38,284 nt of DNA from positions 1-38,284 of IMG/VR virus record IMGVR_UViG_3300043540_000799; one strand, 5' to 3'. This stretch comes from a virus. This document shows positions 9,352 through 24,672 of this stretch, one piece after another (the first letter of the stretch is position 1; the number at the start of each line of letters is the position of its first letter). The notes beneath the pieces were generated by a model. It searched no databases. It saw nothing but the letters and a program-made list of their open reading frames with translations, and was not told the origin of the DNA. The translations under genes were made by a program, and so were the position numbers.

Positions 9352-10110
9352 ATGTCGAACACAACTTCCGTCGCTTTCGGCTCGGGCGTTCTCATCGCCA
9401 CGCCGTCCGGCGCCAACGCGACGCCGGTGCAGTTCGGCGCGCTTCAGGACGTCACGCTCGATTTCAGCTTCACCTCGAAGCAGCTGTTCGGCCAGTACCA
9501 GTTCCCGATCGCTTTTGCGCGCGGCGAGGGCAAGATCAGCGGCAAGGCCAAGTTCGCCAATATCGACGGCCCGCTCTACAACGCCTGCTTCTTCGGCCAG
9601 ACGCTGAATGCGGGCCAGAAACTCTGGGCCTACAACGAAGCCGGCGCCGTCGCGTCCTCCACGCCTTACACCTACACGACCGCCAACGCCTCCGCCTTCG
9701 ACGCCGACCTCGGCGTGGTCTATGCATCGAGCGGCCTCGCGCTCACCCGCGTCGCCTCCACGCCCACCGTCGGCCAATACACGCTCTCGGGCGGCATCTA
9801 CACCTTCAATTCCGGCGATTCCGGCAAGGCCATCCTGGTGTCCTATTCCTACACCCAGACATCCTCCGGCAGCGGCTCGCGCGCGGTGATGACCAACAAG
9901 CTGATGGGCGCGGCCCCGACCTTCCAGATCGATTTCTATCAGACCAGTCCGAGCGTCGCCGGCGCGCAATGGTCTCTGCGCCTCTACAGCTGCGTCTCCA
10001 CCAAACTGAGCATCGCCTCCAAGACGCAGGACTTCAGCATCCCCGAACTCGATTTCGAAGCCTTCGCCAATTCGGCGAACAACATCGGCGAAATCAACAC
10101 GGCGCTCTGA
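9352..10110 (+). CDS. Major tail tube protein
   Basis: Encodes 252 residues, with an AAGGAG ribosome site (9338-9342). The N-terminal part (FGALQDVTLDFSFTSKQLFGQYQFPIAFARGEGKISGKAKFANI) is characteristic of tail tube proteins of this phage group, and the C-terminal half continues as beta strands ending IPELDFEAFANSA. Hexameric rings of this protein would stack into the non-contractile tube. Residues ~112-170 hold the beta module shared with the connector and the SGNH protein (GLALTRV, VGQYTL, GIYTFNSGDSGKAILVSYSY), probably displayed on the tube surface. The next gene starts one base after the stop. Confidence 0.87.
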   Translation: MSNTTSVAFGSGVLIATPSGANATPVQFGALQDVTLDFSFTSKQLFGQYQFPIAFARGEGKISGKAKFANIDGPLYNACFFGQTLNAGQKLWAYNEAGAVASSTPYTYTTANASAFDADLGVVYASSGLALTRVASTPTVGQYTLSGGIYTFNSGDSGKAILVSYSYTQTSSGSGSRAVMTNKLMGAAPTFQIDFYQTSPSVAGAQWSLRLYSCVSTKLSIASKTQDFSIPELDFEAFANSANNIGEINTAL

Positions 10111-10824: not shown

Positions 10825-11991
10825 ATGGCGGATAACGTTTCGATCTCCTTCGGCGCCGATGCGTCCGGCTTCCTCGACGGCGTCGCGCGCGTTTCGGCGG
10901 CGCTGACGAAAATCAGCGAAGCCTCGCGCGCCTGCGGCTCCTCCCAGCAGGACGTCTCGCGCGCCAACCTCGTCGCGATCAACGGTGAGATCGCCGCCGA
11001 GCAGATGGCGTTCGCGCAGAAGCAGTCGCTCTACACCGAGCTGACCCGGCTGAAGATCATGACCGGCGGCGAGCGCGTCGCCGCAACCCAGGCGGCGCTC
11101 GACGCCGAATATGCGGCGCAGTCGGCCCTGCTGCAAAAGGAAGCGCAGATCGAAGGCCTGCGTCCCGCGCAGCATCAGGCGATCCTGAGCCGCATGATGC
11201 TGCTCGACCAGAAATACGCGGCGGACAGCCAGCGCCTGATGCTGCAATCGGTGGAGCAGATGGTCGCGCCGATGAACCATATGATCGACTCCATGTCGTC
11301 ATCGATGTCCTCGTCGCTCACCGGAATGATCATGGGCACGAAAAATCTGCAGCAGTCGATGCGCGCGCTCACGACGGCCGTGGTGAACCAGTTCGTGAAA
11401 ATGGGCGTCGACGTCGTCGCCGACTGGGCGAAAAAGCAGATCGCGCTTGCGGCGCTGTCGGTCGCGGGCGAGGGCCAGAAGACCGCCGCGGCAAGCGCGG
11501 GCGCCGCCGCGCGCACCGGCATATCCGCGGGCGAAGCGGCGGCCGGCGAGGCCAATATTTTCGCCACGGTGCTGCGCAACATCACGGCGTCCGCCTCCGA
11601 AGCCTTCGCGGGCGTATTCGGCTTTCTCGCGCCCGTCATGGGCCCCGCCGCCGCCGGCCCGGCCGCCGCCGCTCAAGGCGCGGTGCTGTCGGTCGCCGCC
11701 TTCGACATCGGCGCCTGGTCGATCCCGCAGGACCAACTCGCCATGGTGCACAAGAACGAACTGATCATGCCGGCCGCCGAAGCGGGCGCCTTCCGCTCCA
11801 TGTTGAGCAACCAGTCCAACGGCGCGCAATCGCCCGCCGCCGGCGACACGCACGTCCATCTCAATGTTTCCGCCATGGACGCGGCCTCCGTGAAAAACTG
11901 GCTCGCCGGCAACTCGCGGCAGATCATGAAGGCGATGAACCAGGCCGTGCGCAACGGCGATCATATCGGTCTGCGGCGGCTGGCGCAGTAA
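10825..11991 (+). CDS. Tail tape measure protein (short)
   Basis: Encodes 388 residues. Tape measure features are present: an alpha-helical N-terminus (FLDGVARVSAALTKISEASRA), long charged helices with AATQAALDAEYAAQSALLQKEAQ split across residues ~80-115, then a Met/Ser-rich segment (DSMSSSMSSSLTGMIMG, ~152-170). After this come Ala/Gly-rich hydrophobic stretches around 215-300 and a C-terminus with AFDIGAWSIPQDQLAMVHKNE. Tape measure length sets tail length; at roughly 1.5 angstrom per residue this predicts a short tail of about 55-60 nm, similar to GTA-type particles. It follows the chaperones and precedes the baseplate genes, as expected. Confidence 0.83.
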   Translation: MADNVSISFGADASGFLDGVARVSAALTKISEASRACGSSQQDVSRANLVAINGEIAAEQMAFAQKQSLYTELTRLKIMTGGERVAATQAALDAEYAAQSALLQKEAQIEGLRPAQHQAILSRMMLLDQKYAADSQRLMLQSVEQMVAPMNHMIDSMSSSMSSSLTGMIMGTKNLQQSMRALTTAVVNQFVKMGVDVVADWAKKQIALAALSVAGEGQKTAAASAGAAARTGISAGEAAAGEANIFATVLRNITASASEAFAGVFGFLAPVMGPAAAGPAAAAQGAVLSVAAFDIGAWSIPQDQLAMVHKNELIMPAAEAGAFRSMLSNQSNGAQSPAAGDTHVHLNVSAMDAASVKNWLAGNSRQIMKAMNQAVRNGDHIGLRRLAQ

Positions 11992-11995
11992 GATC

Positions 11996-14476
11996 ATGGC
12001 TGATCTCTTCGGCGTCTGCCTCCTTCCCGCAAGCGGCGAATTCACCTACGATACGCTGCCGGCGCAGGCGAAGAAATCGACGGAAACGTCGTTCTCTCCG
12101 ATCAACGCCTATTTCGCGCCCGCCGGAACGAGAACCGATTATTCCTTCGCGCTCGACCAGCTCCAGGCCGCGCATCCGGAATGCCAGACCGTGGCGCTGA
12201 TTTGCGCGTGGTTCGGCAATTCCACCGACGCCGCAACCTGCCAGATTTACCCCTCCACCAACTACATCGGCGGCGCCTTCCGGACCCTCGCCAATGCCGC
12301 GTGGAGCAGCGCGAACTGGCAGGTCTCCGGCCTCACGCAATCCTCGCCCGGCCTGATCCCTATCTCGACGAGCAACGGCGCCGCCACCTACGGCGGCACG
12401 CCCTCCGACCAGAGCATCGTGCGCTGCATCCGCGATCTGCGCGCGAGAGGTTTTCGCGTGATCTTCTACCCGTTCGTGCTGATGGATGCGCAGGGAAAAC
12501 CCTGGCGCGGCCGCATCGGCCTCGCGAGCGATCTCACGGCGGCGACGACGCAGACCGTCAACGCCTTTCTCGGCGCCGCGACGCCCTCCCAGTTCACGCG
12601 CGACGCCACAAATCTCACCGTCGCCTATTCCGGCGCCCTCACCGATTTCACTTGGCGCCGCTTCATCCTGCACTACGCCAATCTCTGCGTCCTCGCCGGC
12701 GGCGTCGATCTGTTCCTGCTCGGCTCGGAACTGCGCGGCCTGGAAATCTTGCGCGGGCCGGACTGGAGCCCGGCGGGAACGACCGACGCCAACGGCCACG
12801 CGCAATGGGACTATCCCTTCGTCGCCGGCCTCGCGCAACTCGCCGCCGACGTGCGCGCCACCTTCGACGCCGCCGGCCTCGCCCGCGACCTGACCAATTC
12901 GAGAAACCTGATCGCCTATTCCCCGGACTGGTCGAGCTGGAACGGCTGGCAGCACGCGAACGCCAACGGCCAGTGGCCGCACCTCGATTCCCTGTTCGCA
13001 TCTCCAAACATCGACCTCGTCGCCTTCGACAACTACCTCCCTTTGTCCGACTGGACGCTCGGCGATGGCGGTCTCGATTGCCAGAACTGGAGCGCCCCGG
13101 CGCCGGATAGCTGGCCGCCCGCGCCCGACACGATGAACGGACTCGGCCTTCCCGGCCAGCCGTCGCTGCGCAATTCGGACTACCTGAAAGCCAATATCGA
13201 GGGTGGCGAAGGCTACAATTGGTATTACAACAACAGCGCCAGCGGCGGCGTCGGCCTCGACCCGCTCGGCACCGACCAGCGCTGCACCCTCCCACTCGGC
13301 GACCGCGCCACGCAAACCCGCCACGCCTTCGCCGCCAACCAGCAATTGCTGATGCGAAAAGGCCTGCGCTGGTGGTGGAACAACACACATCGCGCGGTCT
13401 ACGACAATGGCGACGGAACCGGCTGGAGCCCCCACGGCCCCGCCACCGCGTGGACGCCGCGATCGAAACCCATCGCCTTCGTCGAATACGGCTTCTCCAC
13501 CGTAGACCGCTGCACCAACCAGCCCAACGTCTTCTATGACGCCAAATCGACCGAAAGCGCCACGCCGTTCTGGTCGCTTTGGACGGGATCGATCGGCATG
13601 GGCTGGTCGCCGCTGCGCGACGACGCGCTCGCCGATCTCGCGCTGCAGGCCGTGCACGATTACTGGAGCGCGCACAACGAAATCTCGCCCGCCGCCGTCC
13701 CGATGATCCTGACGCCGTTCTGCTGCGCCTGGAACTGGGATGCGCGGCCCTTCCCCGTTTTCCCGCTCGACGCGAATGTCTGGGGCGACGGCGGCGATTG
13801 GGCGACCGGCAACTGGATTGCAGGCAAGGGTCCGTCCGCGGCGCCGCCGTCGCCCGACGCGCCGCCCGCCGCGGGTTCCTTCGCAATCTTTCCCCAACTC
13901 GTGGGCCAGGGTTGGAGCGTCAAATACCAGCCGCGCTTCCTGACCCAGGTCCAAGTCCACGCATCGGGCCGGGAGCTGCGCGCGTCGCGTCGCGCCAATC
14001 CGCTCCATGACATCGAACTGACCTTCAACGTCCTGCGCGACGATCCCGCCAATGCGGAAATGCAGGAGGTCGTCGCCTTCATCGCCAACCACGCGGGACA
14101 GGCGCAGCCCTTCCTGTTCGCGCCGCCCGACGCTCTCGGCCAATGCCTTGGCGCCAGTCTCGGCAAAGGCGACGGCGCCACGACGAACTTCGTCCTCAGC
14201 CGCCCGTTCGGCGGCTTCGTCGAAACCGTCCAGGCGCTCATTGGCGCGCCGACGATCTACGTCAACGGCGTCGCGAGTCCCTCGACCGCCGTCACGCTGT
14301 CGATCTTGCCCGCAACCGTCGTCTTCGCCACGCCCCCGGCGGCGGGCGCGATCCTGACGGCGGATTTCACCGCCGCGCATCTCGCGCGATTCAGCAGCGA
14401 CGACATCGAGCTGGAACAGTTCATGGCCGAATTCTGGGAAACCAGAAGCCTCAAAATCGAAACGGTGCGCGCGTGA
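11996..14476 (+). CDS. GTA TIM-barrel protein fused to a DUF2460 distal-tail domain
   Basis: Encodes 826 residues. Residues ~60-600 match the GTA TIM-barrel-like domain found at the front of the GTA tail-tip protein (RcGTA gp15): VALICAWFGN, YGGTPSDQSIVRCIRDL, FRVIFYPFVLMD, RRFILHYANLC, GVDLFLLGSELRGLE, DLVAFDNYLPLSDW, NIEGGEGYNWYYN, WWWNNTHRA, SKPIAFVEYGFSTVD, QPNVFYDAKS, and NWDARPFPVFP. After a Pro/Ala linker (~610-626), residues 627-826 are a DUF2460 domain (FPQLVGQGWSVKYQP, then the GDGATTNFVLSRPFGGF module). DUF2460 proteins form the distal-tail ring. Here the TIM barrel, possibly a glycosidase-like cell-wall binder, is placed on the distal-tail protein. It starts four bases after the tape measure stop. 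Confidence 0.88.
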   Translation: MADLFGVCLLPASGEFTYDTLPAQAKKSTETSFSPINAYFAPAGTRTDYSFALDQLQAAHPECQTVALICAWFGNSTDAATCQIYPSTNYIGGAFRTLANAAWSSANWQVSGLTQSSPGLIPISTSNGAATYGGTPSDQSIVRCIRDLRARGFRVIFYPFVLMDAQGKPWRGRIGLASDLTAATTQTVNAFLGAATPSQFTRDATNLTVAYSGALTDFTWRRFILHYANLCVLAGGVDLFLLGSELRGLEILRGPDWSPAGTTDANGHAQWDYPFVAGLAQLAADVRATFDAAGLARDLTNSRNLIAYSPDWSSWNGWQHANANGQWPHLDSLFASPNIDLVAFDNYLPLSDWTLGDGGLDCQNWSAPAPDSWPPAPDTMNGLGLPGQPSLRNSDYLKANIEGGEGYNWYYNNSASGGVGLDPLGTDQRCTLPLGDRATQTRHAFAANQQLLMRKGLRWWWNNTHRAVYDNGDGTGWSPHGPATAWTPRSKPIAFVEYGFSTVDRCTNQPNVFYDAKSTESATPFWSLWTGSIGMGWSPLRDDALADLALQAVHDYWSAHNEISPAAVPMILTPFCCAWNWDARPFPVFPLDANVWGDGGDWATGNWIAGKGPSAAPPSPDAPPAAGSFAIFPQLVGQGWSVKYQPRFLTQVQVHASGRELRASRRANPLHDIELTFNVLRDDPANAEMQEVVAFIANHAGQAQPFLFAPPDALGQCLGASLGKGDGATTNFVLSRPFGGFVETVQALIGAPTIYVNGVASPSTAVTLSILPATVVFATPPAAGAILTADFTAAHLARFSSDDIELEQFMAEFWETRSLKIETVRA

Positions 14477-15075
14477 GTCTTCCCATCTTCCCAACCCTTC
14501 CCGGCCAAGGCTGGAGCGTCAAGAAATCGCCGACGTTCTCGACCCGCGTCGCCGCGCATTCTTCCGGCCGCGAAGTGCGCGTCCCGCTCTACGCCCACGC
14601 GCTCTACCAGTTCGAACTGTCCTTCGACGCCTTGGATTCAAGCGGCGCCCATGCCGGCGCGCAGGCGCAATCCCTGCAAACCCTCATGGGCTTCTGGATG
14701 TCGCGCAGCGGCCAGTATGGCGCATTTCTCTACGTCGATCCGACCGACAACGCCGCCACCGACCAGGCCATCGCGACCGGCGACGGCGCGACCACGAGCT
14801 TCGTGATCGGACGCGCCATCGGCGGCTATTTCGAACCCGCAAGCTATGTCACCTCGGTCTCCGGCGTCACGGTCAATGGCGCGCCAACCACCGCCTATAC
14901 GCTGACGGCGCCAAACACCATCGTCTTCTCTGCGCCGCCCGCAAGCGGCGCAACCATTGCCGCAAGTTTTTCCTACGCCTTCGAGTGCCGCTTCCTCGAC
15001 GATACCGCCGAATTCGAGAACTTCGCCTCCGGCCTGTGGAAGGTCGGCGGCCTCAAATTCCGTCAGGTGCGCTGA
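14473..15075 (+). CDS. DUF2460 distal tail protein (stand-alone copy)
   Basis: Encodes 200 residues from GTG 14473, overlapping the previous stop by four bases (GTGA), which is why this start is chosen. It aligns by eye along its whole length with the C-terminal 200 residues of the preceding protein: FPTLPGQGWSVKKSPTF, SSGREVRVPLYAHALYQFELSFD, GDGATTSFVIGRAIGGYFEP, and a final ENFASGLWKVGGLKFRQVR. It matches DUF2460 (RcGTA gp12-like), the ring joining the tail tube to the hub. The pair looks like a tandem duplication followed by divergence and fusion. Confidence 0.87.
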   Translation: MSLPIFPTLPGQGWSVKKSPTFSTRVAAHSSGREVRVPLYAHALYQFELSFDALDSSGAHAGAQAQSLQTLMGFWMSRSGQYGAFLYVDPTDNAATDQAIATGDGATTSFVIGRAIGGYFEPASYVTSVSGVTVNGAPTTAYTLTAPNTIVFSAPPASGATIAASFSYAFECRFLDDTAEFENFASGLWKVGGLKFRQVR

Positions 15076-15076
15076 C

Positions 15077-15985
15077 ATGAAATCCGCTCCCCCCGCGCTT
15101 CTGTCCTATTTGAACGCCCTGCGTCCGGCGTCAGACGCGCCGCTGCTCACCGCCGAATGCTTCACCATCTGGCTCTCGACCGGCACGGTGCTGACCTATA
15201 CCGATTTGGATACGCCGGTCGCGATCAACGGCTTCACCTACCTCGCCAATTCCGTGCTGATCTCCGGTCTGAAATACAAGGCGAGTTGCGGCGTCAACGT
15301 CGACAGCCAGCAGGTCATGCTGTTCGCGCGGTCAAGCGACACGATCGGCGGCATCCCTTTCCTCCAGGCGGTGCAGCAGGGCGTGCTCGACGGCGCCGAG
15401 ATCCAGCGCGAAAAAGTCTTCTTCAGCGACTGGAACACGCCGATCGGCTCGGTGATCCTGTTCAAGGGCCGCGTCGCCCAGATCGACGCGATCGGACGCG
15501 CCAGCGCCCAGGTCACCGTCGCCTCGGACATGGTGCTGCTCGACATCGACATGCCCCGCAACGTCTACCAGGCGGATTGCCAGCACGTTCTCTACGACGC
15601 GCAATGCGGTCTGGCGGCGGGAACCTATTCCACCGCGGGCGCCGCCGAAAGCGGCTCGACGCAAAACATCATCGCATGGAGCGCGGCGAAACTCGACTAC
15701 CAGCGGGGCACGATCGCCTTCACTTCCGGCGCCAACACGGGCGTCAATCACACCATCAAGTCCGCGAGCGCGGGCCGCCTCGTCCTCTCCTATCCGCTGC
15801 CCTATCCGCCGGCGACGGGCGACGCCTTCGTCGCGACCTTCGGCTGCGATCGCACGATGGCCACCTGCCAGAACCGCTTCGGCAATCTCGCGAAGTTTCG
15901 CGGCTTCCCCTTCGTGCCGCCGCCGCAGATCATGACTGGCCCGCTGTCCTCCGTCTCCAACAGAAGCGCAAAGGGCGGCAAATAG
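15077..15985 (+). CDS. Baseplate hub protein, DUF2163 / phage BR0599 type
   Basis: Encodes 302 residues. ATG 15077 follows the previous stop by one base. Family marks are the N-terminal LLTAECFTIWLSTGTVLTYTD, LYRF-like strand LKYKASCGVNVDSQQVML, FKGRVAQIDAIGR, VYQADCQHVLYDAQCGL, and the C-terminal GCDRTMATCQNRFGNLAKF. The four late cysteines (two in each of the last two motifs) match the conserved cysteine set of this hub family, which in lambda gpL-type relatives binds an iron-sulfur cluster; that binding is inferred here. The hub (RcGTA gp13-like) sits between distal-tail ring and tail-tip protein. Confidence 0.88.
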   Translation: MKSAPPALLSYLNALRPASDAPLLTAECFTIWLSTGTVLTYTDLDTPVAINGFTYLANSVLISGLKYKASCGVNVDSQQVMLFARSSDTIGGIPFLQAVQQGVLDGAEIQREKVFFSDWNTPIGSVILFKGRVAQIDAIGRASAQVTVASDMVLLDIDMPRNVYQADCQHVLYDAQCGLAAGTYSTAGAAESGSTQNIIAWSAAKLDYQRGTIAFTSGANTGVNHTIKSASAGRLVLSYPLPYPPATGDAFVATFGCDRTMATCQNRFGNLAKFRGFPFVPPPQIMTGPLSSVSNRSAKGGK

Positions 15986-15995
15986 GAGCAACATC

Positions 15996-16508
15996 GTGAA
16001 CGACGTTTTTGAGCGCGCCGGGACGGACGCCGCCGGCGTTCGCCGACCGTGCGGGGACGAGGCGGAGCAACGCGCCTCCGTGGTTGCCGAGGCGCGCGGC
16101 TGGATGCTCACGCCCTATCGCCATTGCGCCGACCTTCGCGGCGTCGGCGTCGATTGCGGAATGTTGATCGTGCGCGTCTTCGTCGATCTCGGGCTCACGC
16201 CGCCGTTCGACCCGCGTCCCTACGATCCCGACTGGATGATCCATCGCGACGACGAAAAATATCTGAAGTTCTTCACCGAGCGTTGCGCGCCGATCAAACA
16301 GCCGCGCCCTGGCGACATCGTCCTGTTCCGCTATGGCCGCAGCTATTCGCATGGCGGCATCGTCACGCAAACCGATCCGCTGACGATCATCCACGCCTAT
16401 CACGACGCCGGCTGCGTTGTCGAAGAGCAGCTGAATCAAAATCCCGCCCTGACCGATCCGCGGCGCAAGCTCGCCTTCTTCTCGATTTGGCCCATAACCA
16501 GCAACTGA
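15996..16508 (+). CDS. NlpC/P60 cysteine peptidase (GTA gp14-like cell-wall peptidase)
   Basis: Encodes 170 residues. GTG 15996 is used, with AGGAG (15984-15988) overlapping the upstream stop codon. The catalytic triad is visible: C54 in GVDCGMLIVR, H119 in YSHGGIV, and H133 in TIIHAYHDAGC. This family cleaves peptide bonds in peptidoglycan stem peptides. In GTA-type tails the protein is carried at the tip and opens the cell wall during DNA delivery. The order hub, peptidase, tail-tip protein is as in GTAs. Confidence 0.9.
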   Translation: MNDVFERAGTDAAGVRRPCGDEAEQRASVVAEARGWMLTPYRHCADLRGVGVDCGMLIVRVFVDLGLTPPFDPRPYDPDWMIHRDDEKYLKFFTERCAPIKQPRPGDIVLFRYGRSYSHGGIVTQTDPLTIIHAYHDAGCVVEEQLNQNPALTDPRRKLAFFSIWPITSN

Positions 16509-16517
16509 GGGCGCACA

Positions 16518-18629
16518 ATGGGATTTCTCGGAGCTGGGAACGTCAACACCCAGATCACCAAATATTCGGGCTTGCAGGTCCAGACGACGTCAAGCTGCGT
16601 GCCCGTGCCGATCGTCTACGGCGCCAATGTGCTCGCGCCCAACTGCTTCTGGTACGAAAACTTCAAGGCGGTTCCGCAACACGCCGGCGGCAAGGGCGGC
16701 AAGGGCGGCTCGACGACGAGCTACAACTATTCCTGCTCGATCATGATGGGGATCTGCGAGGGTCCGATCGTCGGCATCGGTCAGATCTGGCAGACCTCCA
16801 ACACCACGACCACCCTCGTGGACCTGGCCCTCAGCCTGTTCGCCGGCGCCTCGCCGCAAACGGTCTGGTCCTATCTGGCGTCGGCGTTTCCCGCCCAGGC
16901 GCTGTCCTATCCCGGCGTGGCCTATGTCGCCAGCGCCAACTACAATCTCGGCGCCTCGGCCAGCGTCGGCAACAACAATTTCGAGGTTCATGGCGTCCTC
17001 TACGGCACGGGGGTCAATGGCGTCGACGCCGACCCGGCGCTGGTGATTTCCGACTTCCTCACCAATCCGCAATATGGCGTCGGATTTCCCGCGGCTTCGA
17101 TCGACGCGACCTCGCTCTACGCCAATGTGGGCGACACATCCTATCAAACCTATTGCTGGGCCAATTACCTCGCCATCAGCCCGGCTCTGAACATGCAGGA
17201 AACCGCTTCCTCCATCCTGTCGCGCTGGCTCCAGCTAACCAATGCGACGGCGGTCTGGTCCGGCGGTCTGCTGAAAATCATTCCCTACGGCGACAGCGTC
17301 GTTACAGGCGGTTCGGCGGCGTTGCAGAAAACCTGGACTCCGAATCTGACGCCAGTCTACGATCTCTCCGACGAGGATTTTCTGCACACGGAAGGCGAAG
17401 ACCCGGTCAAGATCACCCGGTCGGATCCCTATTCCGCCTACAATCAGCAGGCCATCGAAATCCAGGCGCGCTCTGACGCCTACAACACCGGCCCGATCGT
17501 CGCCTTCGATCAGGCGGCCATCAACCGCTTCGGCCGCCGCGTCGGCTCGACGGTCGCCGCGCACGAGATCTGCGATGTCGCGGTGGCGCAGACCTCGGCG
17601 CAATTGATCCTGCAGCGCGGCCTCTACATCCGCAACACCTACAGTTTCAGACTGTCGATGGAGTTCTGCCTCCTCGATCCGATGGACCTCGTGACGCTCA
17701 CCGATCCCGCGCTGGGCCTCAGCGCCACGGTCGTGCGCATCACCGACATCGAGGAAGATTCCGAAGGCGCGCTCACGGTCACGGCGGAAGAATTCCCGCA
17801 AGGCGTGGCTACGGCCACGCAATATCCGACCCAGCCCAGATCGAACGGCGCGCCGGACGCCAATGTCGCGGCGCAACCGGTCAACCCGCCGCTGATCATC
17901 GAGCCGCCGCCGCCGCTTACCGGCAATGCCGCGCAAATCTGGATCGGCGCCAGCGGTCAGAATGCGGATCCCAACTGGGGCGGCTGTCTCGTCTGGGCCT
18001 CGCTTGACGGAGCGTCGTATACGCGCATCGCGCAGATTTCGTCTCCCGCCAGCCAGGGCGTCCTGCTGGCGGCTTTGCCCGCCTTCGCAGGCGCCAATCC
18101 CGACTCCGCCGACACGCTGAGCGTCGATCTGACGCAAAGCGGCGGCGTCCTGAATTCCGTATCCTCCACGGCCGCGGCGGCGGGCGTCACGCTCTGCTAT
18201 GTCGATGGCGAATATATCGGTTACACGACCGCCAATCTGACCGCCGCCGATCGCTACGATCTCTCCGGACTCTATCGCGCCCAGGGCGCCTCGCAGGCGA
18301 GCGCGCATTCGGCGGGCGGCGTGTTCTGCGCGCTTGATTCCGCGATCCTGCATTACGACATTTCCACGGCGCAGATCGGCCAGACGGTCTATCTCAAATT
18401 CCAGAGCTACAATGTCTTCGGCGGCGGCGTGGAGGACCTCTCCACATGCGCCGTCTACACGCACACCATCCAGGGTCTGGGCGCCGTCGGACCGGTTGCG
18501 GCAAGTCTGGCGATCGGGGCGCCGATGGATTTCGGACTGGTCAACCAGCTTGTCGCCGAAACCGACGATTACGGCGATCTCCAATCGCCGGTCACGCTCG
18601 TCGTCGATCTCGGCGGAGTGTCGACCTGA
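16518..18629 (+). CDS. Large tail-tip / host specificity protein lacking the GTA TIM barrel
   Basis: Encodes 703 residues. The N-terminus (ITKYSGLQVQTTSSCVPVPIVYG), YNYSCSIMMGICEGPIVGIGQIW, and the ISDFLTNPQYGVGFP region match tail-tip proteins of the lambda J / T5 pb3-like 'Phage-tail_3' group, with the family's middle block GLLKIIPYGDSVV, PVYDLSDEDFLHTEGEDPV, and DPMDLVTLTD. A Pro-rich linker near 455-470 (VNPPLIIEPPPPL) separates a C-terminal half of beta domains. In GTAs the equivalent protein (gp15, over 1,200 residues) carries a GTA TIM barrel at its front; here it is absent and found in the gene at 11996. This protein plugs the tail tip and contacts the outer membrane. Confidence 0.85.
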   Translation: MGFLGAGNVNTQITKYSGLQVQTTSSCVPVPIVYGANVLAPNCFWYENFKAVPQHAGGKGGKGGSTTSYNYSCSIMMGICEGPIVGIGQIWQTSNTTTTLVDLALSLFAGASPQTVWSYLASAFPAQALSYPGVAYVASANYNLGASASVGNNNFEVHGVLYGTGVNGVDADPALVISDFLTNPQYGVGFPAASIDATSLYANVGDTSYQTYCWANYLAISPALNMQETASSILSRWLQLTNATAVWSGGLLKIIPYGDSVVTGGSAALQKTWTPNLTPVYDLSDEDFLHTEGEDPVKITRSDPYSAYNQQAIEIQARSDAYNTGPIVAFDQAAINRFGRRVGSTVAAHEICDVAVAQTSAQLILQRGLYIRNTYSFRLSMEFCLLDPMDLVTLTDPALGLSATVVRITDIEEDSEGALTVTAEEFPQGVATATQYPTQPRSNGAPDANVAAQPVNPPLIIEPPPPLTGNAAQIWIGASGQNADPNWGGCLVWASLDGASYTRIAQISSPASQGVLLAALPAFAGANPDSADTLSVDLTQSGGVLNSVSSTAAAAGVTLCYVDGEYIGYTTANLTAADRYDLSGLYRAQGASQASAHSAGGVFCALDSAILHYDISTAQIGQTVYLKFQSYNVFGGGVEDLSTCAVYTHTIQGLGAVGPVAASLAIGAPMDFGLVNQLVAETDDYGDLQSPVTLVVDLGGVST

Positions 18630-20680: not shown

Positions 20681-21952
20681 ATGGAATGGCAAAACCCTGA
20701 TGGGTCCTTGACCCGCGGCGTGATCATCGAAGATGGCGCCGGCAACAAGATCACCAGTTTCGCGGGCGGCGGCGCCGGCGGCTCCAACGCCAGCGTCGGT
20801 GCGAGCGGCGCCGCGGCTCCATCGAGCGCGACCGAGATCGGTTTTGTCAACGCGCTCGGAAATCTCACGCCGGTGGCCGCGTCCAACCCGCTCCCGATTG
20901 CCGCCGCGACCGCGCTGGTCACGAGCGACAGCGGCGCCGCCATCACCGGCGCCGCCATGCCCAGCGGCGGCTCGGGTCTCACCGGCTGGCTCTCCGCGAT
21001 CTGGTCGAGGCTTTCCGGGACGCTCGCCGTCTCCTGGACCGGTTCGCCGAACGTCACGGTCGCCAATTCGTCGCTGGCGGTGACCGGCGCATTCTACCAG
21101 GCGACACAGCCGGTATCGGCCTTGGCGCTGCCGCTGCCCGCAGGCGCGGCGACCGCCGCCGCGCAGACGGGGGTCCAGACGACAACCACAGCCGGCGCCG
21201 CCAATCGGGCCGTGATTTCCGACGCGGCGTCGGGCCAGGGCGCGCTCGTCGCGGCCTTCCACAATGCCGACAATCAGGCCCTCGGTTCGACGTCCTATGG
21301 CGTGATGACCGGCGGCGTCGCGCAACTCGTCAATTCCAGCGGCAATCTCGACCGCCAGCGCGAGGGCTATGCCGACGCGATGGCGATCACCGGCTTCGCC
21401 GGCAGCATCGCCATGGTGCTGAACGGGTCCGGCACGTGGGATCGCCCGCGCTCGGCCGCAGCCGCGCAGGCGACGACTGGGACCGGCGTTGCTGCCGAAG
21501 CCGCGTTCGGCGTCTATAATTCCTCCCTTCCCTCGCTGACGAGCGGCCAATATTCCGCACTGCAGCTGGACGGCTCCGGACGGCTTATCGTCAGCGCGCT
21601 GCCGAGCGGCTCCAATGTCATCGGCGCGGTCAATCTCGATATCGGCGGCGCAACCGTCAGCCAAGGCAATCCGGTTCCGACAACCGAGACCTACGCCAAT
21701 ATCGCCACCGGCCAGGTCTCCGTCGCATCCACTGCGACGCTGATCGTCGCCGCACGCGCTGGCCGCAAGGAGGCGACAATCGTCAACAACTCGACGACCG
21801 CGGTCTTCCTCGGCGCTTCCAGCGTCACGCCATCCTCGGGTCTCCTGCTGGCGGGTGTTGTTGGCGAGGGCATCACGATTACTGGCGGCGCAGCAATCTA
21901 CGGCATCACGGCGACGGGCTCCGAGACCGTGAGCTATCTCGAGGTCTACTGA
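20681..21952 (+). CDS. Beta-rich tail-associated protein with a GWLSAIW repeat module
   Basis: Encodes 423 residues from ATG 20681 (GGAGAC upstream). The first 40 residues (MEWQNPDGSLTRGVIIEDG then Gly-rich FAGGGAGGS) look like a virion-attachment segment. Residues ~83-130 carry GAAITGAAMPSGGSGLTGW.. and LSAIWSRLSGTLAVSWTG, a module repeated in the protein at 25265-26587. This is followed by VTGAFYQATQPVSALALPLP. The C-terminal end (GRKEATIVNNSTTAVFLG) is a small beta domain seen at the ends of phage structural proteins. It is probably a fibre, a decoration or a linker protein. Its stop shares a base with the next start (TGATG). Confidence 0.65.
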   Translation: MEWQNPDGSLTRGVIIEDGAGNKITSFAGGGAGGSNASVGASGAAAPSSATEIGFVNALGNLTPVAASNPLPIAAATALVTSDSGAAITGAAMPSGGSGLTGWLSAIWSRLSGTLAVSWTGSPNVTVANSSLAVTGAFYQATQPVSALALPLPAGAATAAAQTGVQTTTTAGAANRAVISDAASGQGALVAAFHNADNQALGSTSYGVMTGGVAQLVNSSGNLDRQREGYADAMAITGFAGSIAMVLNGSGTWDRPRSAAAAQATTGTGVAAEAAFGVYNSSLPSLTSGQYSALQLDGSGRLIVSALPSGSNVIGAVNLDIGGATVSQGNPVPTTETYANIATGQVSVASTATLIVAARAGRKEATIVNNSTTAVFLGASSVTPSSGLLLAGVVGEGITITGGAAIYGITATGSETVSYLEVY

Positions 21953-24672
21953 TGCGTAGCGCGATCGCTGTTCTCCCGCTTCTGCTCGGCGCTCTGACTG
22001 CGAGCGCGCAGGACGTGGCTATCCAGAGGATGAACAATGCGGGAGGAATCCCGATCCATAGCGGAGGAGGGCACGCATTCTCTCCTCCCGCCGGATACGT
22101 CCAGCCGACCATTGTCAACAACTATCTGATTGCGGCGGGGGATTCCCGCACAGCGAATTCGATGGTCTTTCCCGCCTGGTCTGGCGGAAACACGTTCACG
22201 ACGGCGACCAATTATTCCAATGGCTATGCAGGCTGGCTGTTTCCCCTGTCGGGCAACAGGTATCTTGCGGAGATCGGGTGGAACTATGCAGTCGGAGCGC
22301 AAACGACCGCCGGCATCGCCGGGCGTCTGTGGAACACGACGCAGTACTGCAATGATTCCGGTTCGATAGCCGCCGCCTGCTTCACCGACGCGAGCTCCAC
22401 GGTCAGCTCTGCGGTGTCGGCCAATCCGTCCTCGCCGCTGACCATTCCGCTGGGAACTGTTTCGGGAACTCCAGCTGCTGGCGATTACATCACATCTTCG
22501 GTCGGCGTCAATTTCGGCTGTGCGATCACCAGCTATAATAGCTCGGCGCCGAGCGTCACCGTTCCCGCCAACTGCATCACCGGTCCGATCGCTTCTGGCG
22601 CCGCCGTTGCGTTCGCGCATCCAGCCCACGCCTCGTCGTTCACGAATTATGCGCCCTTCCAGTCCTCTGGAACCGCCGGCGCGACCATCACCGACGTCGA
22701 CACCAACAAGGTCAACGGCGGAGCCTATTACGGGGGCTCGTACTCATTCGCCACGGACCCTGCTCAGGTCCTGTTCCTGATGGCGGGAACGAACAATGCG
22801 AACAGAGCCGTCGCCAACACCATTGCCGACTTCCAATCGATCTTCAACGCCTACGGTCCGTCCGGGTTCAACAAGATCGTCGTGATGAGCGACGAGGTTC
22901 CCAGGGGGCTGGCCGAGGGCTATTCCCAGGCGAATGCGTCCACGAACGGCAGTCCCGAGGCGTGGACCATTCCCTCGTCGTCGCCATACACGATTACTGT
23001 CGCAAATGCTTCCACCTACTACGACACGCAGCAGGTGCTGTATGCGCCCTGCGGGTCCACGTCCACGGGGGCGCCTGCATACACCTACTACTGCGGAACA
23101 ACGGCCTCTGGCGTCACGTTCTCCCCCGGTTCGTCCGACGGGACTGCGCTGACGCAGGTCACCGGACCGCCCTCAGCCGGTCAGTATTCTGTTGCCAATG
23201 GAGTCTATACGTTCAATAGCTCGGACGCGGGCAAGCACATCGTCATCCTCTACAGATGGGTGAACAACGCGACCGTCGCCGCGCCGAACTATCTGACGAC
23301 CATCCACAACTGGCTGGACTCAACAGACTGCGGATCGTGGACCGATCCTCTCTCGTCGACTACGTACCCCGGCGTGTCTGGGGCGCAGTGTGCGGATCTG
23401 TATCCGTGGGTGCATGTCGCCTCCACCTGGAGCGCTCTGCTCGACACGAGCACTGGCTCGAACGACTACAATCTTCCCTACACGTCGGTGGACGGACTGC
23501 ACCCAACTCCGTATGGGGGCGCCCTCCTCGCACAGGCGATGCTGAACGCGGGCAACTCCGTCGTAACGAGCATGCCCTCCACGCCCTATACGGTGGCGAC
23601 AGCAAACAATACATGGTTTTACGGAACCACCTATGTGTCTTCCGCAGCCCAAACGTCCACCTGCCCGACCCAGCCCAAGGGATTCTACATTGCGAATGTG
23701 ACTGTCGGGTCTACTCCTCTGTCATCTCTGTCCTCTGCGCAGGCAGCTGCGCTGTTCCCCGTCGGCGCCAAGCTGTACTTCCAGAATGCGACGCAGGCGG
23801 CGAATAACGGCTTCTCGATCACATGCGTGGATACGACAAACGCGCTGATTCAGATGTCGGCGACATCGAAAGCGACCCTAACCGGTTCCTCCGTCAACTG
23901 GGCGATGGCGCAAGCCGACCTGACAAGTCCCGCATCGTTCCTCGCCAATGGAATTACTGGCGGCTACATCTACAGCTACCAGACCAACACAGCATCTCCG
24001 GTGGCGAACTCCCTGACTCCCTCCGGGTCCATGATCGGACCCACTGTCGAGCAAGGTGTGCCTTACGGCTGGACTCTCGCCCTGGACTCGGGCTCGACCA
24101 CCGCGATGTCGAAGGGCATCCTTGGGTTCGGGTACGGGGTCGAGCAGAACCCGTTCTTGGACGGAAACGACGACTTCGTGATGCAGTTCCAGGGATATGC
24201 CGGAACCGGCACGCCCCAGATCTCTCTGACGCAGTCCATCCAGACTCCGCTCGCGAATGCATTCGCAACTGGGTCGCAGCAGAGAGCCCTCTGCCGGGTC
24301 ATGGTTTCGGCAGGTCCGAACGGTCATCTGTATGGGCTGACCGGAGTGGTCGTGAAGTACTCCGACAACAACGGCGCTGGAGGGTTTGTTCCTCCTGGGC
24401 TGTCCTCCGGGGCTTACACGATCTGGGCTGGCCTGACGGGAAATGGAGCAACGGTCTTTAATGACGCCAGTCTGTGGACTGGCGCGCCAGGGGTGCAGAG
24501 CACGAATCTTGGAAACACTCTGATTCTGGACGAGATCACGCCTCCTGCCCAGGTGCAAGGCGGAGGGACAAATACTTCACAGGTGGTTCTGTACGTAACG
24601 CTGTCGCCAGGCGATCCGGTGTCGGCAACTGTCAGGTTCAGGAACTGCCGGGCCATGCAGGTGTCGCAATGA
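21952..24672 (+). CDS. SGNH/GDSL-hydrolase tail protein with signal peptide
   Basis: Encodes 906 residues. The N-terminus (MRSAIAVLPLLLGALTASAQ) is a Sec-type signal peptide with a probable cut near residue 19-20. SGNH hydrolase blocks are present: AAGDSRT with nucleophile S65, GTNN at 279-282, and DGLHP with D514 and H517. The ~230 residues between the last two blocks hold extra beta domains, including the module shared with the tube and connector proteins (~397-436). Such enzymes de-esterify or deacetylate polysaccharides. Codon use is clearly less G/C-biased than in neighbouring genes (many AAT, TCT, GGA), suggesting separate acquisition. C-terminal residues 560-906 are beta-rich with no assigned family. 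The exact substrate is unknown. Confidence 0.78.
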   Translation: MRSAIAVLPLLLGALTASAQDVAIQRMNNAGGIPIHSGGGHAFSPPAGYVQPTIVNNYLIAAGDSRTANSMVFPAWSGGNTFTTATNYSNGYAGWLFPLSGNRYLAEIGWNYAVGAQTTAGIAGRLWNTTQYCNDSGSIAAACFTDASSTVSSAVSANPSSPLTIPLGTVSGTPAAGDYITSSVGVNFGCAITSYNSSAPSVTVPANCITGPIASGAAVAFAHPAHASSFTNYAPFQSSGTAGATITDVDTNKVNGGAYYGGSYSFATDPAQVLFLMAGTNNANRAVANTIADFQSIFNAYGPSGFNKIVVMSDEVPRGLAEGYSQANASTNGSPEAWTIPSSSPYTITVANASTYYDTQQVLYAPCGSTSTGAPAYTYYCGTTASGVTFSPGSSDGTALTQVTGPPSAGQYSVANGVYTFNSSDAGKHIVILYRWVNNATVAAPNYLTTIHNWLDSTDCGSWTDPLSSTTYPGVSGAQCADLYPWVHVASTWSALLDTSTGSNDYNLPYTSVDGLHPTPYGGALLAQAMLNAGNSVVTSMPSTPYTVATANNTWFYGTTYVSSAAQTSTCPTQPKGFYIANVTVGSTPLSSLSSAQAAALFPVGAKLYFQNATQAANNGFSITCVDTTNALIQMSATSKATLTGSSVNWAMAQADLTSPASFLANGITGGYIYSYQTNTASPVANSLTPSGSMIGPTVEQGVPYGWTLALDSGSTTAMSKGILGFGYGVEQNPFLDGNDDFVMQFQGYAGTGTPQISLTQSIQTPLANAFATGSQQRALCRVMVSAGPNGHLYGLTGVVVKYSDNNGAGGFVPPGLSSGAYTIWAGLTGNGATVFNDASLWTGAPGVQSTNLGNTLILDEITPPAQVQGGGTNTSQVVLYVTLSPGDPVSATVRFRNCRAMQVSQ

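Follow-up and report, generated by a model that had tools for sequence, protein, structure and literature searches.

The window (the whole stretch of DNA that was analyzed, 38,284 nucleotides of IMG/VR virus record IMGVR_UViG_3300043540_000799) contained a run of tail genes, in which a TIM-barrel region and a DUF2460 distal-tail (Dit) domain were joined in one protein:

10825..11991, +: short tape-measure protein, upstream of the fusion (PHROG tape-measure matches)
11996..14476, +: TIM-DUF2460 fusion protein, 826 aa (Pfam, PHROG, NCBIfam, and AlphaFold2 model matches)
11996..13828, +: TIM-barrel region of the fusion, residues 1-611, megatron peripheral-type and GH113-like (PHROG 4271, NCBIfam megatron, and fold)
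12728..12730, +: Glu245 codon (GSE, end of barrel strand 4), putative acid/base (invariance; model strand 239-244)
13484..13486, +: Glu497 codon (VEYG, barrel strand 7), putative nucleophile (invariance; model strand 493-500)
13829..13873, +: Pro/Ala-rich linker from barrel to Dit domain (sequence; pLDDT about 30-45 around residues 581-627)
13874..14473, +: fused DUF2460 (DUFa), Dit-like (PF09343 at residues 636-824; 8gtc_G match)
14473..15075, +: second, stand-alone DUF2460 (DUFb), 200 aa (PF09343, E 1.4e-39; 8gtc_G match, 1.9e-7)
15077..15985, +: baseplate hub (PF09931 plus PF09356; Pfam)
15996..16508, +: NlpC/P60 tail peptidase (Pfam)
16518..18629, +: tail-tip protein without barrel (adhesin-like plus central plus Rcc01698_C; Pfam, PHROG, own profiles, and tree)

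The GTG start of DUFb overlapped the stop of the fusion gene (4-base overlap), and the hub, the NlpC/P60 peptidase, and the tip followed downstream of DUFb in the RcGTA gene order. A 906-aa protein at 21952-24672 displayed SGNH-hydrolase-like motifs (GDSR and DGLHPT) by eye, and its residues 394-443 matched phrog_8234 (E 2.7e-8), to which the 252-aa product of 9352-10110 (the probable tail tube protein) also belongs.

Pfam assigned residues 219-590 of the fusion protein to GTA_TIM (PF13547, E 1.3e-93) and residues 636-824 to DUF2460 (PF09343, E 4.7e-27), confirming the view of an earlier note on this DNA that TIM-barrel blocks (about 60-600) and a full DUF2460 domain (627-826) lay in one protein. 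The whole peripheral region of the megatron, the large tail-tip protein of RcGTA, was matched by fusion residues 6-611: (i) PHROG 4271 (megatron-like, 1309 positions) was split, with positions 220-746 on fusion residues 6-611 and positions 822-1176 on the tip, and (ii) NCBIfam megatron NF048004 scored 430.7 bits for the fusion and 145.3 bits for the tip, both short of the score above 800 bits that is required of members, in which the adhesin-like, the peripheral TIM, the central, and the fibre-binding part all lie on a single chain. The RcGTA megatron is composed of iris (1-46), adhesin-like (47-229), peripheral (230-744), central (745-984), and fibre-binding (985-1304) domains (PMC7296036), and the window barrel aligned with its residues 220-763, i.e., the peripheral domain; the barrel is thus internal in the RcGTA protein (230-744 of 1304 residues), not N-terminal as the earlier note had it. 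An assembly chimera or artefact was rejected, because isolates of Rhodoblastus acidophilus, Beijerinckia mobilis, and Roseiarcus fermentans carry the same fusion in their genomes.

Fold and predicted chemistry of the barrel

The AlphaFold2 model of the fusion was built from 33 sequences (mean pLDDT 73.4, the linker and some of the barrel being of low confidence). Model residues 1-600 matched the roseophage R4C megatron (8gtc_M; Z 27.8 over 489 residues, 35% identity), and the next-best fold match was to GH113 beta-mannanases (Z 20.8, 276/309 residues, 3.0 A). At the profile level, GH113 PF22612 scored 22.8 bits against a Pfam cut-off of 27 (residues 132-178), and a profile search of PDB sequences for a residue-level GH113 match returned only GTA/R4C proteins and one chance match. 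Clan GH-A enzymes have their acid/base at strand 4 and their nucleophile at strand 7. Two residues of the barrel, Glu245 and Glu497, did not vary across 155 barrels (110 from fusions and 45 from megatrons, a redundant set); in the model, Glu245 lay by strand 239-244 (strand 4) and Glu497 within strand 493-500 (strand 7), so that by model position the pair occupied the GH-A sites. Compared to the GH113 beta-1,4-mannanases (5YLH and 4CD7), the window barrel was alike in fold (Z about 19-21) and in the placing of a Glu pair on strands 4 and 7, but it had long insertions and a score below the Pfam cut-off.

On the basis of this fold, the invariant Glu pair, and its GH-A strand positions, the barrel looks glycosidase-like in the model and would cleave glycan, in line with the presumption of the earlier note that it is sugar-binding or hydrolytic. 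A barrel that only binds sugar, without turnover, is a possible but rather doubtful alternative: the GH113 score under the Pfam cut-off would suit it, as would the lack of known activity in megatron barrels, whose function a 2026 preprint describes as unknown (PMC13420450), but both putative catalytic Glu were fixed in sequences otherwise diverging to about 35-45% identity, and the fold match to GH113 extended over 276 residues at Z 20.8.

Dit duplication and variants of the fusion

DUFa and DUFb scored 95.2 and 136.1 bits with Pfam DUF2460, respectively (cut-off 30.4), and 38.9 and 39.7 bits with TIGR02217, the Rcc01695 family, both short of its cut-off of 136.65. DUFa displayed the Dit fold, with a Foldseek match to the R4C Dit 8gtc_G (E 3.6e-9, TM 0.64 by target length). 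In the tree, rooted on a chosen outgroup, DUFa and DUFb formed two separate clades (support 100/99 and 98/95) that, as read from these sequences, are derived from one duplication; the earlier note had omitted the stand-alone DUF2460 and so missed the duplication. DUFa was less conserved than DUFb in all 39 of 39 loci, and it had lost its middle insertion domain in many loci while the core was kept; on the tree, the loss must have occurred at least three times. Extra residues were observed in the insertion domain of stand-alone DUFb in L023, L028, L036, L126, L135, and L136, possibly for variable receptor binding.

The barrel was not confined to DUFa. In L045, L046, and L056 it was carried by the sole DUF2460 seen in the locus, 'sole Dit' being meant within these partial contigs, beyond which a second Dit may lie; since this DUF2460 was nested inside the DUFb clade, the barrel appears to have switched to the other Dit copy. 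L187 and L190, likewise partial contigs, resembled these three by annotation, with the barrel on the only visible Dit. In genome G043 (L183/L186), a barrel of the window-type clade was joined to phrog_1302 (2.5e-21), which PHROG names distal tail protein and which represents a Dit family unrelated to DUF2460; the prophage that carries this fusion has a J-like tip, and the AlphaFold2 model of the L186 protein had pLDDT 57, with the Dit part mostly below 50. The barrel reading frames were fragmented in L181, L182, L192, and L198, probably through prophage decay or assembly errors.

Another barrel family was found in front of DUF2460 in L165 (4047-6410, -) and L166 (2488-5004, +), in 2 of 289 sampled class genomes: N4 gp65-like NCTSP_N plus TIM-barrel_NCTSP (PF23844/PF23845). 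This arrangement shared with the window a large N-terminal TIM-barrel region and a barrel-less tip, but it differed in barrel family and was built on a GTA-like Dit that was the sole DUF2460 seen in those genomes.

The barrel-less tip and the origin of the barrel

On the tip at 16518-18629, Pfam detected Phage-tail_3 and Rcc01698_C only, and no barrel. A hidden barrel was rejected, none being detected by Pfam, PHROG, or purpose-built profiles; the profile search that the earlier note had set as its own refuting test thus left its barrel-less tip standing. The alignment of this tip began at RcGTA megatron residue 45. With the purpose-built profiles, megatrons were resolved as adhesin-TIM-central in one chain and window-clade tips as adhesin-central without barrel, and in 72 of the 72 related loci with a visible tip (a redundant set) the barrel was on a Dit-type protein and none was on the tip.

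Compared to the baseplate of RcGTA and R4C (Rcc01695-Rcc01698; PDB 6TEH and 8GTC), the window shared the order Dit, hub, peptidase, and tip, homologous Dit and hub, and the same peripheral-type barrel (Z 27.8 to 8gtc_M), but it differed in three respects: (i) the barrel was on a duplicated Dit rather than between the adhesin-like and central tip domains, (ii) the tip came from another, barrel-less lineage, and (iii) there were two Dit genes.

In the tip tree, rooted with a chosen outgroup, window-clade tips were grouped with tips that likewise lack the barrel, from Brevundimonas phage Strzyga (99/98), Acinetobacter phage 5W, and Pseudomonas phage KT1, and the branch between them and the megatrons measured 2.14 changes per column. 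Because of this grouping and this branch, the tip of the window lineage probably never carried the barrel. The tblastn search with the tip placed the Strzyga, 5W, and KT1 phages at the top and included no megatron phage among the 20 records, and GTA_TIM was absent from the proteins examined of these three phages. In Strzyga, the nearest barrel-less tip relative, an 816-aa protein (L060, 3164-5614) had a glycine-rich domain plus a C-terminal DUF2460.

These sequence relations (tip clade, tblastn order, and relatives free of GTA_TIM) make it more probable that the barrel was recruited onto the duplicated Dit than that it moved from the phage's own tip, so the move proposed by the earlier note was not borne out. 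A true relocation would assume an ancestor with a megatron-type tip whose peripheral barrel moved from tip to Dit; it would explain that the window tip misses just the iris and peripheral domains of the RcGTA megatron and that fusion and megatron barrels are homologous, but it is improbable, given that the window-clade tips joined Strzyga at 99/98 far from the megatrons, that their relatives were phages without any GTA_TIM seen, and that the barrel tree, which is unrooted, displayed a single long split between fusion and megatron barrels.

Likely working, distribution, and significance

Under the preferred reading (probability roughly 0.68), the fusion is an evolved Dit in which a GH113-like barrel on a duplicated DUF2460 docks a glycan-binding or glycan-cleaving domain on the distal tail. 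The flexible linker would join the GH113-like, peripheral-type barrel to the N-terminus of the duplicated Dit; DUFa would dock the barrel on the distal-tail ring, where the unfused paralogue DUFb would stay the main Dit; and the linker-borne barrel would project from the distal tail and bind, and probably cleave, host surface polysaccharide during tail approach, the barrel-less tip and the hub performing the remaining steps. The fusion, the duplication, the barrel-less tip, the fold, the invariant Glu pair, and the repeated Dit attachment were read at the level of sequence and model, and we infer that the fusion is present in the virion, sits at the distal tail, and cleaves glycan.

A Dit hexamer lies between tail tube and hub in RcGTA (PMC7296036) and R4C. 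The barrel should sit at the distal-tail ring, because it is carried by a Dit-type protein and is absent from the tip; the position around the distal tail suggested by the earlier note is therefore plausible, given the 72/72 loci above. The 'different baseplate architecture' claimed there is overstated: in RcGTA a single tailspike contacts the OB domain of the Dit as well as the peripheral domain of the megatron (PMC13420450), which places these two side by side, and Dits with added carbohydrate-binding modules (evoDits) are known to help adsorption in phages of Gram-positive bacteria (PMC9128512). Given the RcGTA arrangement, Dit mounting may change the anchor of the barrel more than its place. 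The fusion has the Dit plus extra carbohydrate-active domain that defines evolved Dits such as those of Deep-Purple and J-1 (PMC9128512), by homology only; it differs from them in that its added domain is N-terminal, resembles an enzyme (a TIM barrel) and not a binding module, and is on a DUF2460-type paralogue beside an ordinary Dit.

The faster evolution of DUFa, the repeated loss of its insertion domain, and the precedent of the detachable RcGTA tailspike (PMC13420450) would also agree with a loosely held or soluble depolymerase that is no ring subunit and has DUFa as a decaying tether. This is improbable, however, since the DUFa core was retained even without the insertion, the only visible Dit of some relatives bears the barrel, and in one phage the barrel is joined to another Dit family. 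DUFa and DUFb may share one ring or form stacked rings, and the number of barrels may vary accordingly. A more speculative extension of the evolved-Dit reading, itself unlikely, is that alternating barrel-bearing and plain Dits would form a mixed hexamer that adapts the six-fold tail to the three-fold baseplate, the Dit N-terminus being a general port where unrelated phages repeatedly mounted different TIM-barrel enzymes.

The fusion was found in 58 IMG/VR loci in one scan, most of them matching from residue 1 to 825, and in 18 loci of a genome scan that included the three isolates named above. Among 298 genomes of the R. acidophilus family (Beijerinckiaceae group), 40 carried it, counted as matches of about 50-80% identity in ORFs that span about 750-990 aa when complete; the remaining matches, with at most 46% identity, were ORFs of megatron type, almost all about 1150-1400 aa long. 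The GTA_TIM best matches listed for the 40 fusion genomes were all at fusion level and none at megatron level, and most other GTA_TIM-matching genomes of this family carried megatrons; a single host sub-lineage may lie behind this split. Of the 385 genomes sampled across the class, only that of R. acidophilus gave the fusion at 1e-66, a threshold outside which more distant fusions could fall, and no record among 50,697 deposited phages matched more than 80% of the fusion length. A literature search for DUF2460 together with TIM-barrel found nothing. The fusion is real and widespread in prophages of one bacterial family, and the arrangement is apparently undescribed; the survey called for by the earlier note thus found it widespread in that family and apparently without a published description.

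By homology, the fusion belongs with the evolved Dits, here within a GTA-type baseplate; a Dit with an added carbohydrate domain is already known, while this variant apparently is not. The same barrel as in the GTA megatron is here a separable N-terminal unit in its own protein, so that expression, assays, and mutagenesis of the barrel are possible apart from the 1300-residue megatron, and the fusion prophages occur in culturable Rhodoblastus and Beijerinckia. The finding also shows that an enzyme-like domain of the baseplate can be carried by scaffold proteins of different kinds, and that one copy of a duplicated Dit has become specialised.
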